Positions 2,356-8,147 of a stretch of 8,233 nucleotides of DNA are shown in pieces; within the stretch, counting starts at the first letter, position 1; every line of letters starts with the position of its first letter. The notes beneath the pieces were generated by a model that searched no databases, was not told where the DNA came from, and was given only the letters and a program-made list of their open reading frames with translations. The translations under genes were made by a program, and so were the position numbers. Origin of the DNA: Chloroflexota bacterium (lineage in GTDB: Bacteria; Chloroflexota; Dehalococcoidia; GIF9; UBA5620); assembly GCA_026389735.1 (NCBI GenBank), contig JAPLHH010000123.1:1-8233 (forward strand), in the 5' to 3' direction.

Positions 2356-2464
2356 ATGTCATTGCGAGGCGTAGCCGAAGCAAACTCGGAGCGGGATTCC
2401 TCGCTTATCGCTCGGAACAAGCTCCGCAATCTCAGAGATTGCCACGCTTCGCTCGCAATGACAT
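2356..2464. repeat. 109-bp MITE-like palindromic element, copy 1
   Basis: The element is bounded by a perfect 13-bp inverted repeat, ATGTCATTGCGAG (2356-2368) and CTCGCAATGACAT (2452-2464). Internal sequence near each end is also partly self-complementary (CAATCTC...GAGATTGC, 2426-2442). It has no coding capacity. The same ends occur in the element at 5315-5455. No target-site duplication beyond the repeat ends is evident. Confidence 0.85.
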
Positions 2465-2473
2465 AACAACAAA

Positions 2474-2528
2474 TGCAGTCGCGACCCTTTAGGGTTGCAG
2501 TGGGCGAGGCTAAAGCCTCGCAACTACA
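2474..2528. repeat. 55-bp double-hairpin repeat, copy 1
   Basis: Two adjacent hairpins form this unit: GCGACCCTTTAGGGTTGC (2481-2498, 8-bp stem with one G-T pair) and GCGAGGCTAAAGCCTCGC (2504-2521, perfect 8-bp stem). The unit is framed by TGCAG and CTACA. A second copy of the same length, order and orientation lies at 7105-7159. Confidence 0.8.
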
Positions 2529-2529
2529 G

Positions 2530-2676
2530 GAGATTCTTCGCGGAGTTTACCCTGAGTGAGATTCTTCGGTCGCGTAGTTTACACTGAGCTAATGGGAGAT
2601 TCTTCGCTACGCTCAGAATGACAGAAAGAGCGAAGTGCTCCTTCAGAATGACATTAATGAAGGGCTCAGAATGACA
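2530..2676. repeat. GAGATTCTTCG / TCAGAATGACA repeat array
   Basis: GAGATTCTTCG occurs three times (2530-2540, 2558-2568, 2596-2606), followed by TCAGAATGACA three times (2613-2623, 2643-2653, 2666-2676). The third GAGATTCTTCG plus the first TCAGAATGACA form a complete unit with CGCTACGC between. The other copies look like partial or decayed units. It has no coding capacity. This looks like a third palindromic repeat family that has inserted or duplicated several times at one site. Confidence 0.75.
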
Positions 2677-2701: not shown

Positions 2702-3919
2702 CTAGCTAAATAAGTCCATCCTTTGCGATTTCCCATCCTTGTCGATATGTTCGATGCTGATAGGGAAGCCCCTGCCGCCAGCAGTTTTTACCTTGGTCTT
2801 GGCGAGTTCAAGCATATCCAGCGGATTAACACAGGCCTCGGGCGGTAAGACCCCCTTCTCCTTGATCTTTCCTGTAGCCGTAAGTATGGCACCTATTGCT
2901 GCCGGGATACCTGTGCCCTCACCCATCCCCTGTCCTCTCGAAGACATCGAGAAAATGTAAGCGTTCTTCTGCCCGTTCTTGTATCCCTTGACCACGATCT
3001 TGAGACAACCCATGGGCTGGTTAATCCCGGCCTCTTTCATCAGCCTCTGCCTCTGCGAAAGTATAAAGGCGACGGCAAACTCCAGAGGAACAACCTTATG
3101 ACCCTGGACGTCGATGGGTTTCTCATCGGTGATGCCCAGCCTGACCATCCCCTTTATCAGTTCGGCGTAAGCCGGCGGCAGCACCAGCCCGAGGTTGGTT
3201 ACCCTCTTCAAGCCCTTCAGGTACTTCGGCAGGGTTATGGTCTCGGGATGCGGATAGCCATAGACACTGTAAATGCCCACATCTTGAAACTCGGCCTCCT
3301 CCTCCAATGCCCTGCCACTGTCTTCAAAGAGCTTAACCGTCGTGAACTTGCCATTGAGAAACACCGGTATGTCTACCTTCATCGAATGGATCCGGTGCTT
3401 CACCACTGCCGGCCCCTCCACCTTTTCACCACCATGGGCATGGTATATATCTACCGCCTCAACCTGGTCGAGCAAAGAATCAGCGCAGAACCTGACCAGA
3501 ACATTTGCCACACCCGGGGAGCTCCCCATCCCAATAAGCGCTGAAATGCCAGCCTTCTTCGCCTTATCATCCATGGCCAGAAGCTTCTCGGTGGCATCGA
3601 AATCATCGCAGACATCAACGTAGTTTATTCTGGCTTCTATCACCGATTTCAATATGATGGGGCCGTATTTGTAGAAAGGCCCGACACAGTTCAGGACAAC
3701 CGATGAGCCGCTGATTGCCTTTCTTATGCTCTGGGGATTCTCAGCATCAAGTTCAACAGCAGATAACTTGCTTCCCTTAATCGCCCGGGCCAGTTTTTTT
3801 GCTGCCACGATATTCATATCGGCGACCGTTACTTCAGAGAACACGCCACTTGAAGCCAGCGTCTCCGTTGCTATGCTGCCAACAGCACCGCACCCACCTA
3901 AAACTGTGACTTTAGACAT
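2702..3919 (-). CDS. Saccharopine dehydrogenase-like NAD(P)-dependent oxidoreductase
   Basis: This 405-residue cytoplasmic protein has the layout of the saccharopine dehydrogenase/reductase-like family. It begins with a Rossmann fold: GGCGAVG (residues 8-14) is the dinucleotide loop, and Asp34 at the end of the second strand (VTVAD) hints at NAD over NADP. Further family-like segments are VLNCVGPFYKYG (75-86), INYVDVCDD (98-106) and IGMGSSPGVANVL (129-141). The remainder is the alpha/beta substrate domain, with GQGMGEGTGIPAA near the C-terminus. The family also includes homospermidine/carboxyspermidine-type and other imine- or hydroxy-acid-oxidising enzymes, so a lysine-pathway role should not be assumed. 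It lies 14 bp after the RuBisCO-like gene, with AAGGAG (3927-3932 on the minus strand) in the gap. The two are therefore almost certainly co-translated, and this enzyme probably acts in the same pathway. The actual substrate is unknown. Confidence 0.85.
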   Translation of the reverse strand: MSKVTVLGGCGAVGSIATETLASSGVFSEVTVADMNIVAAKKLARAIKGSKLSAVELDAENPQSIRKAISGSSVVLNCVGPFYKYGPIILKSVIEARINYVDVCDDFDATEKLLAMDDKAKKAGISALIGMGSSPGVANVLVRFCADSLLDQVEAVDIYHAHGGEKVEGPAVVKHRIHSMKVDIPVFLNGKFTTVKLFEDSGRALEEEAEFQDVGIYSVYGYPHPETITLPKYLKGLKRVTNLGLVLPPAYAELIKGMVRLGITDEKPIDVQGHKVVPLEFAVAFILSQRQRLMKEAGINQPMGCLKIVVKGYKNGQKNAYIFSMSSRGQGMGEGTGIPAAIGAILTATGKIKEKGVLPPEACVNPLDMLELAKTKVKTAGGRGFPISIEHIDKDGKSQRMDLFS

Positions 3920-3926
3920 TTTCCTT

Positions 3927-3932
3927 CTCCTT
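3927..3932 (-). promoter_or_regulatory. Shine-Dalgarno of the oxidoreductase, inside the 14-bp intergenic gap
   Basis: AAGGAG on the minus strand sits between the RuBisCO-like TAG stop (3936-3934) and the ATG at 3919. The tight packing supports an operon and fixes the oxidoreductase start. Confidence 0.75.
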
Positions 3933-3933
3933 C

Positions 3934-5244
3934 CTAGAATCTAATCCCTTTGCTGAACGGGTCCGCCCATTCCTTAAGCGCAATAGCCAACTCCTGATGG
4001 TCTTTAGCATACTCTGACAACGGAATGCCCTGCATAGTGGCATCGATCGCTTGCCGGAATGCCTTCCCGCCGGCGATTGGCCCCTGAGGATGTGCATGAA
4101 TCCCGCCGCCAGAACCGATTACTATATCATGACCTAAATCCGCCATCACCTGTGGCACCATCGACGGCGTGATGCCGCCAGAGGCCATGGGGAATGTCGG
4201 CTTCAGGTTGTACAACGGGAATGACAGGTTTCTGGCAACATTTTTGAACTTATAATCTATCACCGGCGCCTTTCCGTATGGTGCAGGAATGACAACGACG
4301 TCAGCGCCGGCTAGGCGGGGCAGCTTGCCCAGGACAAGATGAGAGCTCATGCCATGATACGGCGACATATAGAAAGCGCCGGCAACATCCATGTGGGCAA
4401 GGATAGGAACGTTTATTTTCGGATCATCGGCCAGCGCCTGCATCACCGGAAAACCGACGGCGAGGTAGTTTATCATCAGCGCATTGCATCCCAATTCCAC
4501 GGCGCGCTTGGCATTTTCAAAGACCTTGGGTATTTTATCAGTTACGTTCACAGTGTACAGAGTACGTTCGCCTGTCTCCTCATAGACCTGTTTCTCAATC
4601 TTCATATAGCGTTTGACACGTCCCAGCGCCGAATTGAACGAAGCATCGGCTATCAACTCATCATCCTTAACAATGTCACAGCCGCCGAGCGCCGCCTTTC
4701 TGAACAACTCAGCGCCGACCTCCAAGGTATAGCCCGTGCACGGCTTTACCATGTTGTTAAGGAGAGGTCGTTTCTGAACTCCCAGGACTTTCCTCACGCC
4801 CTCAATGCCGAATTTCGGTCCCTTAAAGCCAGCAGCATACTTCTTAGGAAAACGGATGTCCACCAGCTTTATGTCGCCACCCATAGAAATGTTGCCGACC
4901 ACCGTAGTCAGCAGCATGGGTATCTGCTCCCCTATGTTGACCTCCGGATAAGCTACCTGCACAAACCACTTCCTGTCCTGCAGATTGGGTGGCACGGTGG
5001 ACTCATAGTCGGGCATTTCATAAACGCCGAGCACTTTGGCGATGTGTTTGCAGCGGACTTCAGGGGTCTCACCGGGCACCGGCAACCAGGTGCCCGTGCT
5101 CTGCTCCACAGCCAGCATAGGCGCTATTATGGGGATGGGGAGCGCTGCCGGGTAGGAGACCAGATATGTGCCGATAACATATTCATCGTAATCTACTCCA
5201 TCCGGCAGAGCGATGGGAAGACCTAAAATCTCTTCTCTATCCAT
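3934..5244 (-). CDS. RuBisCO-like protein (form IV), putative sugar-phosphate enolase/decarboxylase
   Basis: This 436-residue protein has the RuBisCO large-chain architecture: N-terminal domain about 20-145, then the TIM barrel. Aligned by eye to spinach RbcL, it keeps E47-STGT52-W53 (E60, T65, W66), N118 (N123), K167 (K175), K193-D-D195-E196 (carbamylated K201, D203, E204), K325 of loop 6 (K334), S355-G-G (S379-G381) and G379-G380 (G403-G404). It differs at C169 for K177, D286 for H294, V287 for R295 and V318 for H327. Metal-dependent enolisation chemistry is thus retained, while the second phosphate site and the H294 base are lost. This argues against carboxylation of RuBP and for a form IV role; known family members include the MtnW enolase, a methylthio-xylulose-phosphate isomerase and 3-oxo-isoapionate-phosphate decarboxylase. 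Neighbouring kinase and oxidoreductase suggest a phosphorylated sugar-acid substrate. Generic annotation as a true RuBisCO would be misleading. Confidence 0.92.
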   Translation of the reverse strand: MDREEILGLPIALPDGVDYDEYVIGTYLVSYPAALPIPIIAPMLAVEQSTGTWLPVPGETPEVRCKHIAKVLGVYEMPDYESTVPPNLQDRKWFVQVAYPEVNIGEQIPMLLTTVVGNISMGGDIKLVDIRFPKKYAAGFKGPKFGIEGVRKVLGVQKRPLLNNMVKPCTGYTLEVGAELFRKAALGGCDIVKDDELIADASFNSALGRVKRYMKIEKQVYEETGERTLYTVNVTDKIPKVFENAKRAVELGCNALMINYLAVGFPVMQALADDPKINVPILAHMDVAGAFYMSPYHGMSSHLVLGKLPRLAGADVVVIPAPYGKAPVIDYKFKNVARNLSFPLYNLKPTFPMASGGITPSMVPQVMADLGHDIVIGSGGGIHAHPQGPIAGGKAFRQAIDATMQGIPLSEYAKDHQELAIALKEWADPFSKGIRF

Positions 5245-5249
5245 TTAGA

Positions 5250-5258
5250 CACCTCCTT
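5250..5258 (-). promoter_or_regulatory. Consensus Shine-Dalgarno of the RuBisCO-like gene
   Basis: AAGGAGGTG on the minus strand is fully complementary to the usual anti-Shine-Dalgarno and lies 5 nt from the ATG at 5244. It is the strongest such site on the minus strand here, which suggests high expression and fixes the start. Confidence 0.8.
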
Positions 5259-5314
5259 GATAATCAGATTGTTCAGCAATTCCTTCGTTCGTCATTTCGG
5301 GGAGACACTTCTTC

Positions 5315-5455
5315 GTCATCGCGAGGAGCGTAGCGACGAAGCAATCCGCGCTTTTCCGTCATTGCGAGGCGTCCCGAGTGAAACGAGGGAACAGCCGTGG
5401 CAATCTCAGCGGGGTGGAGAATACATTGAGATTGCTTCGCTTCGCTCGCAATGAC
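5315..5455. repeat. 141-bp nested MITE-like palindromic element, copy 2
   Basis: The outer ends are GTCATCGCGAG (5315-5325) and CTCGCAATGAC (5445-5455), an 11-bp inverted repeat with one mismatch. A second left end, GTCATTGCGAG (5358-5368), is a perfect partner of the same right end, so a nested or tandem left end is present. Further complementary pairs are CGAAGCAATC (5337-5346) with GATTGCTTCG (5430-5439), and CAATCTCA (5401-5408) with TGAGATTG (5427-5434). The element fills most of the spacer between the kinase and RuBisCO-like genes and would be transcribed if they share an mRNA. It belongs to the same family as 2356-2464. Confidence 0.85.
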
Positions 5456-5464
5456 AGGCAGGAG

Positions 5465-7015
5465 TTAATAAGCACCTCCTTCACATTTATCGAATCTCTC
5501 CTTGTTCAGCTTTCTATAGAAATTCCGTAGATTGCTGTAAACTTCTTTATATGAATGGAATAGCGAGTCGTAAATCTCCGAATTCTCCGACTGCGGCTCA
5601 AACGCCCTATCTACTTTGACCACCTTTCTCAGCGACTCAAAATCCGGATATATACCAAGGCCGACTGCTGCCACCAGCGCGGCTCCGACAGCACCTGCCT
5701 CTTGAGGGTCGCTAACTGTCTCAATCTTCCTATGAGTTACGTCAGCCAGAATCTGCATCCATGGTTTACCCTTGGCGCCCCCGCCTATGACCTTGAGATG
5801 AGGCAGAGGAAACTTGAATTCTTTTTCCACGATTTCCACTATCCACCTGATATTATACGCCACGCCTTCATAAACAGCCCGCAGCAAGTCCTCACGGCTA
5901 TGCTCGGCACTCAGATTGAGAAAACTGGCGCGAACATAGCAATCGTCTATAGGAGCTCTTTCACCATAAATCCACGGGGTAAAGAGTAAATAATTGGAGC
6001 CCGGTGGAATCTTGGCAACCTCGTCATCCATAAACGCATAGACATTGGGGATATTCGGGTCCTTTTTCTCGGCCTTGTAGAACTCATCAGCAATCCACTG
6101 TATGCAGCCTCCAGCGGCTTCCGTTTCAGCAAACAGAAATGCCTTATTCGGGTCGGCAGAATGAATCGTGGCGGCTCCGCATTTGCCCTGCGGGGTGCGT
6201 TTGGTGACCACGCCCACCCAACCAGACGTTCCGAGATAGACATGGCCTTCGCCTTCACCGACGGCGCCAGAACCCACCGCAGCACAGGGGGCATCTCCAG
6301 CACCAGCAATTACCGGCGTGCCCGGTAAAAGTCCATATTCCCTGGCAGCCTCTCGCGTTAGCTCTCCGACCTTGTCTATCGACCGAACCAGAGGCGGAAA
6401 CTTCTCAGTATCAAGCCCAACATACCTGAAAATGCTGCTAAGCCACGTTTTCTTTTTCAGGTCGATTCCAAATACAGAGGCGCCGGTCCACTCCATGACC
6501 ATGTTGCCCGTGCTACGATAAAAAAGATAACCGGCAACATCAAGAAAACAGCACATCTTATTATAAATCTCGGGCTCTTCCCCTTTCAGCCAGAGCAGCT
6601 TGGGCATGCCATCCTTGCCACATAAGGTAGTGCCGGCAATAAGAGAGAAAACACGGGGGCCCAAGAACTTTCTCATCAGGCGCTCCGCCTGTCCTCCAGC
6701 CCGGTTATCAAGCCAGATTATAGCACGCCTCAGCGGCCCTGCCTTTGAGTCCATGGGAATGATGCCGAGCATCTGCGTGCTGTAAGTAATGCATAACACA
6801 TCTTTGGGTGATATGCCTGTCTGTTCGAGGAGGAGCTTCGTCGTCCGCGTCACCGCGTTCCACCAATCTACAGGCTCCTGCTCCGCCCAGCCCGGCTTAG
6901 GATAGTAGGTCTTGTAGGGCTCAAAGCACTTGCCGTGGACGGCTCCATCGGTATCCACCAAAACCGCCTTATTGCCGCTGGTGCCCACGTCATGGGCGAT
7001 TATGTATTTTGCCAT
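5465..7015 (-). CDS. FGGY-family carbohydrate kinase, xylulokinase-like
   Basis: This 516-residue ATP-dependent sugar kinase has both actin-like domains of the FGGY family. Visible are the N-terminal phosphate loop DVGTSGNKAV (residues 9-18), GWAEQEPVDWW (42-52), W101-LDNRAG, the catalytic-base segment AGAGDAPCAAVGSG with Asp241, GTSGW (262-266), GERAPID (351-357) and the adenosine motif GGGAKGKPWMQILADV (411-426). Overall pattern is closest to xylulokinases. The GQMHG signature that E. coli XylB uses near its substrate is TQMLG here (80-84), so xylulose itself is doubtful. Residues after about 480 form a Lys/Arg/Tyr-rich helical tail. It is the first gene of the minus-strand cassette and probably supplies a phosphorylated ketose or sugar acid to the enzymes downstream. 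The ATG at 7015 is preceded by GGGGGTGG. A xylB label would be over-specific. Confidence 0.92.
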   Translation of the reverse strand: MAKYIIAHDVGTSGNKAVLVDTDGAVHGKCFEPYKTYYPKPGWAEQEPVDWWNAVTRTTKLLLEQTGISPKDVLCITYSTQMLGIIPMDSKAGPLRRAIIWLDNRAGGQAERLMRKFLGPRVFSLIAGTTLCGKDGMPKLLWLKGEEPEIYNKMCCFLDVAGYLFYRSTGNMVMEWTGASVFGIDLKKKTWLSSIFRYVGLDTEKFPPLVRSIDKVGELTREAAREYGLLPGTPVIAGAGDAPCAAVGSGAVGEGEGHVYLGTSGWVGVVTKRTPQGKCGAATIHSADPNKAFLFAETEAAGGCIQWIADEFYKAEKKDPNIPNVYAFMDDEVAKIPPGSNYLLFTPWIYGERAPIDDCYVRASFLNLSAEHSREDLLRAVYEGVAYNIRWIVEIVEKEFKFPLPHLKVIGGGAKGKPWMQILADVTHRKIETVSDPQEAGAVGAALVAAVGLGIYPDFESLRKVVKVDRAFEPQSENSEIYDSLFHSYKEVYSNLRNFYRKLNKERFDKCEGGAY

Positions 7016-7060: not shown

Positions 7061-7130
7061 AACATGCAGCAGCGACCCTTTAGAGTCGCCAATCATCACC
7101 AACATGTAGCCTCGACCCTTTAGGGTTGAG
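7061..7130. repeat. Two degenerate tandem units with CGACCCTTTAG hairpins
   Basis: AACATGCAGC (7061) and AACATGTAGC (7101) start two units 40 bp apart, each leading into a CGACCCTTTAG hairpin: 7072-7089 with one mismatched pair, and 7111-7130 with a 9-bp stem. The second unit runs into the 55-bp repeat at 7105-7159. This looks like a partial duplication of the front half of that repeat. Confidence 0.6.
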
Positions 7131-7159
7131 TTCTGCGAGGCTTTAGCCTCGCCACTACA
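7105..7159. repeat. 55-bp double-hairpin repeat, copy 2
   Basis: This has the same length and order as 2474-2528. The first hairpin is CTCGACCCTTTAGGGTTGAG (7111-7130) and the second is GCGAGGCTTTAGCCTCGC (7135-7152, perfect stem). It is framed by TGTAG and CTACA, which are themselves inverted. The stems carry paired changes relative to copy 1. Confidence 0.8.
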
Positions 7160-7255: not shown

Positions 7256-7588
7256 TTGGAGGAACTAGATAGAGCGGCCATCTACCGCCTTCACGCCCAG
7301 TTTTGTAAGACGCTTTCTGATGCCAACCGCCTCTTGATCATTGCTGAGTTGGCAAAAGGTGAAGTATCGGTCAACGAGCTAGCACAGCGGTTGCAACTGC
7401 GGCAGGCTAATGTGTCGAAGCACTTGGGCCTGATGAGGGAGCGAGGCCTGGTGGTGGCCCGCCGTGAGGGGGCAACCATTTACTACGCTCTCTCTGACCC
7501 TAGAATTATCGAGGCAATCAAGCTGCTGAAGGAGGTGCAAGCAGACCAGATTGAAAAACAGTACAGTCTTGCCCAGGGGAGTCCTTAG
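7256..7588 (+). CDS. ArsR/SmtB-family winged-helix transcriptional repressor
   Basis: This 110-residue DNA-binding protein is of normal length for the family. The core reads KTLSDANRLLIIAELAKGEVSVNELAQRL (residues 18-46), then the recognition region QANVSKHLGLMRERGLV (50-66) and the wing ARREGATIYYAL (68-79). Most members bind as dimers to an inverted repeat at their own promoter and release it on binding a metal or on thiol modification. Here a perfect inverted repeat sits in the promoter just upstream. The ELxCxxC metal site of arsenic/cadmium sensors is absent. The only cysteine is Cys17, so the two-cysteine persulfide switch of BigR/SqrR-type sensors is also missing. Its inducer is therefore unknown. 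DsrE2 and TusA genes follow on the same strand, so it likely controls sulfur trafficking. Translation starts with TTG. Confidence 0.9.
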   Translation: MEELDRAAIYRLHAQFCKTLSDANRLLIIAELAKGEVSVNELAQRLQLRQANVSKHLGLMRERGLVVARREGATIYYALSDPRIIEAIKLLKEVQADQIEKQYSLAQGSP

Positions 7589-7670
7589 CTCCCACCCATG
7601 GCACAGCAGGCATTCGCAGCCTATAGCATGCCACGTTTAACATACAAAAATCCTTACGAAGGAGGAGGAA

Positions 7671-8147
7671 ATGGAAAAAAATGATGGAGTAACCATGATT
7701 ATAATTAGTGGCGACATGGACAAAGTCTTTGCTGCCTTCAGTATCGCCATTGGAGCCGCCGCAGCCGGCAAGGAAACCAACATGTTTTTCACCTTCTGGG
7801 GTATAAAAGCTATCCAGAAGGGAAACCTGACGGGCCAGGGCTTCTTTGGACGCATGATGGGGCTTTTGAACCGAGGTGGCATCAATCGCATCGGCCCTTC
7901 CCGCTTCAACTTCGGCGGCATCGGCCGGTGGATGTTCAAACAAATGATGAAGGCACATAACATAACACCGCTGGAGGAACTTCGGCAAACCGCCATTGAC
8001 TTAGGGGTTAAACTCCTGCCCTGTGAGACGACCATGCAAATCATGGAGATAAAGCGGGAGGACCTGATTGACGAAGTTGAGGATTCGTGTGGAGTGGCCA
8101 CCATGTTGGAGAAAGCTTTCCACTCCAAAGTAACATTATTCGTATAG
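7671..8147 (+). CDS. DsrE2-family sulfur-carrier/transferase-like protein
   Basis: This 158-residue protein is of the DsrE/DsrF-like superfamily, DsrE2 subgroup. Features are an N-terminal strand TMIIISGDMDKVFAAFSIAIGAAAAGKETNMFFTFWGIKAI (8-48), a basic Gly/Met-rich middle (about 55-95), then LPCETTMQIMEIKREDLIDEVEDSCGVATML (116-146). Cys118 lies at the position of the persulfide-carrying cysteine in DsrE-like folds, and Cys140 is a second candidate. Members are linked to TusA, rhodanese and Hdr/Dsr-type sulfur oxidation or relay systems. The hydrophobic N-terminal stretch is the fold's core strand and helix rather than a clear membrane anchor. A strong AAGGAGGAGG precedes the ATG. It is 82 bp after the ArsR-family gene and 17 bp before the TusA gene, consistent with one operon. 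Exact partner and substrate are unknown. Confidence 0.88.
   Translation: MEKNDGVTMIIISGDMDKVFAAFSIAIGAAAAGKETNMFFTFWGIKAIQKGNLTGQGFFGRMMGLLNRGGINRIGPSRFNFGGIGRWMFKQMMKAHNITPLEELRQTAIDLGVKLLPCETTMQIMEIKREDLIDEVEDSCGVATMLEKAFHSKVTLFV

Follow-up and report, generated by a model that had tools for sequence, protein, structure and literature searches.

An FGGY-family kinase (KIN) and a RuBisCO-like protein (RLP) were found to be encoded, with an interchangeable third gene, in a conserved and modular operon, which in the window (the whole stretch of 8,233 nucleotides analysed here) is completed by a saccharopine-dehydrogenase-like oxidoreductase (SDH). The cassette probably breaks down an amino-alcohol, and this substrate is perhaps fat-like and related to sphingosine; we assign a probability of roughly 0.4 to the reading in which the three genes form an operon for the catabolism of a compound headed by a 2-amino-1,3-diol, most likely a sphingoid-base-like lipid. 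On the minus strand of the window the gene order is KIN (5465..7015, 516 amino acids; Pfam FGGY_N/FGGY_C), RLP (3934..5244, 436 amino acids; Pfam RuBisCO_large 161.7 bits, RuBisCO_large_N 34.1) and SDH (2702..3919, 405 amino acids; Pfam Sacchrp_dh_NADP 67.1, Sacchrp_dh_C 45.7). These coordinates bear out the layout of the original prediction, which had three co-directional genes with 14 bp between the second and the third. The 220 bp gap between KIN and RLP (5245..5464, no strand assigned) contains a palindromic intergenic repeat, and an Rfam scan of the window gave no match; in seven relatives (loci L002, L009–L012, L015 and L046) KIN and RLP are directly adjacent or share 4 bp.

The neighbourhoods of RLP homologs were compared in the window and 56 related loci. 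In 45 of the 54 loci with at least 400 bp of upstream sequence, KIN preceded RLP in the same orientation; these loci are from Chloroflexota, Actinomycetota, 'Deltaproteobacteria' and Clostridia, and the RLP subfamily itself ranges over these groups and Asgard archaea. The RLP of locus L001 is 96% identical to that of the window, one carrier in culture is Anaerovorax odorimutans SL.3.17, and there are many further homologs in metagenomes. The third gene was SDH in 22 of the 57 loci and a PLP-dependent aminotransferase (AT) in 15, with both at no locus and neither at 20. The trio thus recurs, as does the predicted combination of phosphorylation, an oxidoreductase and an RLP as a gene set, but the third gene varies, being SDH, AT or neither. 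For 37 of the 57 loci (L001–L057) the whole genome was searched as well; SDH (24 genomes, >490 bits) or AT (15 genomes) was present in 35 of these 37, and both were present in 4. In two Asgard loci, which were left out of the adjacency count, RLP and KIN are separated by 8.5 kb (L044) and 9.7 kb (L045); genes for AMP-ligase, AOR, Fe-ADH, SCP2 and a further class III aminotransferase lie between them.

Co-occurrence was assessed in 245 genomes sampled from the class of genome G002. RLP (E <= 1e-120) was present in 13 genomes, SDH (E <= 1e-120) in nine, all of them RLP genomes, and KIN (E <= 1e-140) in 17, which covered 12 of the 13 RLP genomes; in the thirteenth, G532, a KIN fragment adjoins RLP (locus L126). 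Hypergeometric probabilities of this association with RLP, calculated with kinship among the genomes ignored, were ~1e-13 for SDH and ~1e-15 for KIN. An open-access-weighted literature search retrieved nothing linking RLP with FGGY and saccharopine dehydrogenase, with sphingosine or with apionate, and no mention of an operon, kinase or gene cluster was found in PMC5234717.

Alignment of 55 RLP subfamily sequences with 22 form-III-like sequences showed that 15 of 18 numbered RuBisCO active-site columns are kept, including E60, K175, K201, D203, E204, H294 and K334. The sequence from L055 (Bauldia) was excluded from these counts because E60, H327, K334 and other positions differ there. Unlike in form III RuBisCO, K177, R295 and H327 were replaced in all 55 sequences, R295 by Met (51) or Val (4) and H327 by Val (51) or Ile (4), so that both ligands of the C5-phosphate (P2) of RuBP are lost. 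Among NCBIfam models, the best matches of the window RLP were those for MtnW, a form IV RLP acting as 2,3-diketo-5-methylthiopentyl-1-phosphate enolase, with scores below the cut-off for both PRK09549 (390 bits, cut-off 409) and TIGR03332 (353.2 bits, cut-off 513.6). It also scored below the cut-offs for form III RuBisCO (TIGR03326, 260.1 bits vs 497.45), which the form-III-like sequences of L061 and L064 exceeded (565.6 and 542.3 bits), and for OiaX (NF042437, 192 bits vs 700). Judged by these scores, RLP belongs to a subfamily without a name, for which the RLP models scored (MtnW, RuBisCO, OiaX) do not account, in line with the expectation that the cassette is unlike known RuBisCO-like pathways. 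RLP resembles MtnW in its fold and in the logic of a substrate with a single phosphate and a non-polar tail, but it keeps E60, N123 and K334 where the two solved MtnW sequences (2zvi, 2oek) have Gly, Lys and Ser, Asn being present at the N123 column in all 55 sequences. In MtnW the Lys at this column is the general base. The partners also differ: here they are an FGGY kinase plus either SDH or AT. The AF2 model of RLP had a pLDDT of 79.

Amine chemistry is likely in the cassette. The AF2 model of SDH (pLDDT 87.3) was most similar in Foldseek searches to carboxyspermidine dehydrogenases (TM 0.80) and next to the L-lysine dehydrogenase of Pyrococcus (TM 0.71). SDH thus shares its fold with carboxy(nor)spermidine dehydrogenase and L-lysine 6-dehydrogenase but is only ~20% identical to them and scored 60.5 bits against the carboxynorspermidine synthase model NF043000 (cut-off 800). 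Since these nearest solved folds act on amines, amine chemistry is common ground between SDH and AT, and the replacement of SDH by a PLP aminotransferase at the locus points to amine removal; SDH is accordingly predicted to be an NAD-dependent oxidative deaminase. The nearest matches of AT were GSAM and D-phenylglycine aminotransferase, and it matched the aminopentol aminotransferase 6hbs at 82 bits as well. FumI, an enzyme of this kind, is reported to be a class III transaminase that strips the C2-amino group from a sphingoid analogue, hydrolysed fumonisin (PMC2933618), and in this respect it resembles the predicted AT step, although the match, to the AT of L053, was of only 82 bits. The cassette differs further by its RLP; we know of none in the FumI route.

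KIN is predicted to phosphorylate a primary hydroxyl. In a phylogenetic tree, the window KIN fell on one side of a branch with values of 99/96, along with the other kinases linked to RLP, SDH, aldolase, AT or S1P lyase and one kinase neighbouring GlpD. A publication describes an FGGY kinase of glycerol type next to a GlpD homolog. A kinase of the KIN clade adjoined an S1P-lyase gene in 13 of 44 lyase loci, from three phyla: in the nine best of a first set of 20, which were taken from 43 lyase places listed, in 1 of 11 and 3 of 11 in two further sets, and in 0 of 2 in a fourth. Two of the lyases scored 635 and 641 bits against solved S1P lyases. The KIN-lyase gene pairs suggest a bacterial sphingoid-base kinase of FGGY fold. 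Several observations count against our main reading. In the other 31 lyase loci there was no KIN within ~1.5 kb, the contig seemingly ending there in two, and lyase homologs without KIN linkage also matched S1P lyase best. The window KIN is 27–34% identical to the lyase-linked kinases, which are no closer than two other FGGY kinases (36%), and the bridge between them is L040, with a KIN 54% identical to the lyase-linked kinase of L119 and an RLP 56% identical to that of the window. The window locus contains no S1P lyase gene; among the 13 RLP genomes sampled from the class of G002, two had a lyase-like match, namely G498 and, as a fragment, G002, and so did the RLP genome G033. A second type of sister cassette was evident in 291 Clostridia-class genomes, where six of ten AT places adjoin a class II aldolase and three adjoin RLP. 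The best models for this aldolase were ribulose-5-phosphate epimerase and ribulose-1- and fuculose-phosphate aldolases, and three of the AT-KIN-aldolase cassettes also contain an aldehyde dehydrogenase.

In the pathway that we propose, KIN would phosphorylate O1 of a sphingoid base or another 2-amino-1,3-diol, and SDH, or the GSAM-like AT in relatives, would remove the amine at C2, yielding a 1-phospho-2-keto-3-hydroxy compound. RLP would hold the phosphate of this compound in the RuBisCO P1 site, with the tail occupying the place of RuBP's C4-C5-phosphate, enolise it at C3 via the Mg/carbamate-lysine centre and then process the C2-C3 bond. In the sister cassettes the C2-C3 step may be catalysed by the class II aldolase, after deamination, or by S1P lyase, for which deamination would be unnecessary. 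The proposal shares with the sphingosine kinase and S1P lyase pathway a C1 phosphorylation followed by C2-C3 cleavage, and sister kinases encoded beside the lyase, but it substitutes deamination and RLP for the lyase. Sphingosine kinase has a eukaryotic lipid-kinase fold, whereas KIN is an FGGY protein. That RLP is a carboxylase distinct from RuBisCO, placing CO2 onto C2 of a 1-phospho-2-keto-3-hydroxy lipid fragment and hydrolysing the C2-C3 bond to 3-phosphoglycerate and a carboxylic (fatty) acid, is possible but seems doubtful. The MtnX-like phosphatase added in four of six Clostridial RLP loci counts against our main reading, since it would be superfluous on the way to 3-phosphoglycerate. 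To our knowledge, few RuBisCO-like proteins are of known reaction. Action of RLP on a deaminated amino-alcohol phosphate would extend the RuBisCO fold to amine or lipid catabolism, and carboxylation would make it a natural CO2-adding RuBisCO relative with a substrate other than RuBP; CO2 would then be fixed through RuBisCO chemistry on a non-sugar substrate when amino-lipids are degraded in anoxic sediments.

The same enzyme logic could apply to a small water-soluble amino-polyol or amino-sugar alcohol instead of a lipid, an alternative that we consider rather unlikely. The FGGY family comprises kinases of sugars and polyols. Two results speak for this alternative and against our main reading. 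Neutral ceramidase was above cut-off in only 2 of 37 RLP genomes, as against 5 of 9 KIN-lyase genomes, and was rejected as a marker. Genes for acyl-CoA dehydrogenase, acyl-CoA ligase, AOR, Fe-ADH and SCP2 were not significantly enriched near RLP cassettes, and fat-oxidation gene enrichment was rejected; one of eight gene classes, thiolase-like by our reading, gave p=0.047 uncorrected, with queries drawn from the case loci themselves and against 39 control stretches of the same genomes, one of 329 bases, picked non-randomly by contig number or round coordinates. A member of the MFS family adjoins the cassette in L004, L009, L053 and L056, those of L004 and L053 matching MFS models, including one for a D-galactonate transporter, all far below cut-off, and by eye a GPH-type transporter adjoins AT-RLP in L113; the transporters of L004, L053 and L113 hint at a soluble substrate. 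Against such a substrate stand the S1P-lyase genes beside sister kinases and the replacement of both C5-phosphate ligands by Met or Val and by Val or Ile, a non-polar change.

The original prediction of a sugar or sugar acid that is phosphorylated, oxidised at an alcohol by SDH and enolised or decarboxylated by RLP, as in the isoapionate route, now appears improbable. In the 3-oxo-isoapionate-4-phosphate route a kinase feeds the RLP in a catabolic operon, and OiaX is a decarboxylating RLP by its NCBIfam name; the best equivalog match of KIN, XylB (TIGR01312, 332.3 bits, cut-off 380.25), also fits a sugar. However, the kinase here is of the FGGY family and RLP falls far short of the OiaX model, while SDH is replaced at 15 loci by an enzyme incapable of alcohol oxidation, and a sugar acid would leave the S1P-lyase partners of same-clade kinases unexplained.

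Least probable of all is a variant of methionine or 5'-deoxynucleoside salvage, with RLP acting either as an enolase of MtnW type or as a 1,3-isomerase of a 5-substituted ribulose-1-phosphate, which would have no need for an FGGY kinase or amine removal at this point and was set aside as the main reading on the MtnW cut-offs and the missing Lys, despite MtnW models being the top matches. It was retained as a rival because of neighbouring genes in Clostridial loci, the only ones with such neighbours among ~20 loci read by eye: besides the MtnX-like phosphatase, of which the L052 copy scored 89 bits (cut-off 292), a PNP-superfamily gene and an IF-2B/MtnA-family gene lie upstream in L051, while L052 has an amidohydrolase and, as judged by eye, is preceded by nucleoside-type ABC transporter genes and followed by a uridine-phosphorylase-like gene.

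The KIN gene (FGGY-family kinase; window 7015-5465), the RLP gene (RuBisCO-like protein; 5244-3934) and the SDH-like gene (saccharopine-dehydrogenase-like oxidoreductase; 3919-2702) were located by ORF calling and Pfam on the minus strand, at the coordinates that the original prediction had assigned to them, with gaps of 220 bp between KIN and RLP and 14 bp between RLP and SDH. Pfam and NCBIfam confirmed the three folds, and none of the three proteins reached the cut-off of any NCBIfam equivalog model scored: KIN gave 332 bits against XylB (cut-off 380), RLP 390 and 353 bits against the MtnW models (cut-offs 409 and 513.6), 260 against RuBisCO III (497) and 192 against OiaX (700), and SDH 60.5 bits against carboxynorspermidine synthase (800). 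The closest named proteins and contigs were from Chloroflexota/Dehalococcoidia MAGs.

The RLP operon is real and conserved, and is without an assigned function. A scan of genome contigs with RLP gave 231 places, of which 79 loci were kept; L001-L057 are 43–96% identical to the window RLP, while L058-L079 are form-III-like (34–39% identity), and both form-III-like loci scanned (L061 and L064) passed the RuBisCO III cut-off. L055 was left out of subfamily counts because its active site differs. The cassette recurs in the neighbourhoods of homologues: among the window and 56 loci, KIN was found upstream of RLP, on the same strand and within 2.6 kb, in 45 of the 54 with at least 400 bp of upstream sequence. 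Those without KIN directly upstream were L016; L020, L030 and L057, which each have less than 1 kb upstream; L053, where the kinase stands behind a transporter and AT, a GSAM-like class III aminotransferase; and the Asgard loci L042-L045. In L044 and L045 a kinase does lie downstream of RLP, at distances of 8.5 and 9.7 kb. The RLP clusters of L044 (9959-21275) and L045 also hold genes for an AMP-ligase, aldehyde ferredoxin oxidoreductase, SCP2, an iron alcohol dehydrogenase and another class III aminotransferase. The third gene at 57 loci was SDH in 22, AT in 15, both in none and neither in 20, among them several truncated by a contig end. In the whole genomes behind 37 of the 57 loci, SDH (>490 bits) or AT was present in all but two, 35 in total, the exceptions being G022 and G037, the genome of L055. 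Across 245 genomes of one class, RLP occurred in 13, SDH in nine, all of them RLP genomes, and the kinase in 17, including 12 of the 13 (co-occurrence P ~1e-13 and ~1e-15, kinship ignored). On the G002 chromosome the SDH gene is split, with residues 1-333 beside RLP (L002 11325-12491) and the C-terminal piece 440 kb away (L098 7201-8430), adjoining a lyase-like fragment and a nitroreductase-like gene, through either rearrangement or misassembly.

With residues numbered as in spinach RuBisCO, anchored on motifs, the RuBisCO residue was kept at 15 of 18 active-site columns in nearly all 55 rows of the RLP subfamily (three of the 15 with one gap, two with one deviating row). The K177 column held C (51 rows) or N (4), R295 was replaced by M (51) or V (4) and H327 by V (51) or I (4); the canonical residue stood at all 18 columns in 22/22 form-III-like rows. 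In RuBisCO the second RuBP phosphate is bound by R295 and H327, and with both replaced the expected RLP substrate would carry one phosphate and a non-polar tail. Two MtnW rows have G, K and S where the RLP subfamily has E60, N123 and K334, so that the carboxylation apparatus is kept more fully in RLP than in MtnW; this is suggestive, not proof, of carboxylation by RLP.

The SDH family is tight: eleven rows are 60–95% identical to the window SDH, and Asp34, where the second strand ends, is invariant. An Asp in this position of a Rossmann fold usually favours NAD, and the residue thus favours predicted NAD use by SDH, as in catabolism. The nearest folds to the SDH AF2 model (pLDDT 87.3) were carboxyspermidine dehydrogenases (TM 0.80), followed by L-lysine dehydrogenase (TM 0.71), all amine enzymes. 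The closest matches of AT were GSAM and D-phenylglycine aminotransferase, and it also gave 82 bits against the aminopentol aminotransferase 6hbs; an enzyme of this type is reported to take the C2-amino group off hydrolysed fumonisin, a sphingoid analogue (PMC2933618). Both SDH and AT occurred in four genomes (G011, G018, G027 and G028), where SDH is of a second type, near 50% identical to cassette SDHs; at six loci (L080-L085), in these genomes and likewise in G030 and G031, this type adjoins a second kinase. The amine link, absent from the original prediction of sugar or sugar-acid catabolism, has good support from gene content.

Among Clostridia (class of G036), AT (E <= 1e-150) was present in 8/291 genomes at 10 places, with a KIN-family kinase nearby in all but L113. 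Its neighbour was a class II aldolase at six places and RLP at three; at one place (L104/L111) the contig ends just past AT. RLP therefore occupies the place of a class II aldolase-family enzyme in the AT-KIN module, an enzyme that, if an aldolase, would split a 1-phospho-2-ketone. The best models for four whole aldolases and one fragment were L-ribulose-5-phosphate epimerase, fuculose-phosphate aldolase and ribulose-1-phosphate aldolase, all five sequences falling below the cut-off of every model matched. In three cassettes the kinase is accompanied by an aldehyde dehydrogenase gene, which comes directly after it in L111 and L112 but is one gene away in L110, and an iron alcohol dehydrogenase adjoins the aldolase in L114. 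At L051-L053 and L057, four of the six Clostridial RLP loci, an MtnX-like phosphatase gene directly follows RLP, none being seen in L113 and L117; the one copy scanned was below the MtnX cut-offs.

Sister kinases were linked to sphingosine-1-phosphate (S1P) lyase. In G454, a kinase without RLP is followed 12 bp on by a gene matching the Symbiobacterium S1P lyase at 635 bits. Searching with this lyase gave 43 places in 34/245 genomes of the class of G002; of the 20 examined, a KIN-clade kinase lay directly upstream of the nine best, and no such kinase was present within ~1.5 kb of the remaining eleven. The kinase lay beside the lyase at 1/11 loci for the phylum of G027 (two apparently cut off by the contig end), 3/11 in that of G024 (one downstream) and 0/2 in that of G036, or 13/44 lyase loci overall. 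These pairs (L119 581-3613; L127-L135, L147, L197, L201, L202; three phyla) are a candidate bacterial sphingoid-base kinase gene pair. The L131 lyase scored 641 bits against an S1P lyase of solved structure, whose activity on S1P is reported in the review PMC6148460. L137, a homologue without a linked kinase, likewise best matches S1P lyases, so that lyase identity has to be treated apart from kinase linkage. The nine KIN-lyase genomes and the 13 RLP genomes of the class showed no overlap, numbers too few for an exclusion test; an unlinked lyase-like match was present in two of the latter (G498 and, as a fragment, G002), and RLP genome G033 has a lyase without an adjoining kinase. In a midpoint-rooted tree of 46 kinases, a 99/96 branch set the 41 cassette kinases (those linked to RLP, SDH, an aldolase, a lyase or AT) and a GlpD-neighbour kinase (L096) apart from the rest. 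A 100/100 branch joined lyase-linked and SDH-linked kinases with one that is AT-linked and two that are RLP-linked (L040, L041); the window KIN lies outside it, with only 27–34% identity to lyase-linked kinases.

In the best reading of the mechanism and ALTERNATIVES, KIN would form an amino-alcohol 1-phosphate, SDH or AT would convert it to the 2-ketone, and RLP would enolise and then process this ketone by isomerisation, splitting or carboxylation. The aldolase and lyase sister cassettes favour C2-C3 cleavage; the Clostridial phosphatase favours an unsplit phosphorylated RLP product there. For Pseudomonas sphingosine, a different route has been proposed that uses a predicted flavin oxidoreductase together with a threonine-aldolase-like enzyme (PMC3900636). 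Another paper proposes that an actinobacterial form IV protein is an epimerase, on the grounds of its neighbourhood, where a gene with an epimerase domain and a DeoR-type domain occur (PMC7325909); no such genes were seen at the present RLP loci. Sections of a methionine-salvage paralogue review make no mention of FGGY or saccharopine (PMC6302742).

Ceramidase and lipid-gene tests count against a lipid reading. Ceramidase exceeded its cut-off in 2/37 RLP genomes versus 5/9 KIN-lyase genomes, all partial matches. With queries picked from loci of the same study, which leaned the test towards a positive, the counts in 817 kb around RLP cassettes and 544 kb of control stretches were 13 and 5 for acyl-CoA dehydrogenase, 7 and 3 for acyl-CoA ligase, 5 and 3 for AOR, 4 and 0 for Fe-ADH, 3 and 0 for SCP2, 3 and 2 for the CaiB type, 0 and 0 for ALDH, and 9 and 1 for a thiolase-like family named by eye (p=0.047, uncorrected).

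Palindromic intergenic repeats occupy the cassette flanks and the KIN-RLP gap (window 2435-2623, 5428-5456 and 7064-7159): a 29-bp repeat at 2435 and 2595, beside the cassette, and at 5428, in the gap, and a 56-bp repeat flanking the cassette at 2473-2528 and 7104-7159 (80%). Divergent plus-strand genes for an ArsR/SmtB-type regulator and then a DsrE2-type sulfur-carrier protein (7256-8147; Pfam/NCBIfam) have no evident tie to the cassette. On the minus strand, a 316-aa ORF (1170-220) had no Pfam or NCBIfam match, and a TM1586-type nitroreductase gene (2321-1455; Pfam) lies downstream of the cassette, its family also following the cassette in L001 and, by eye, in L123.
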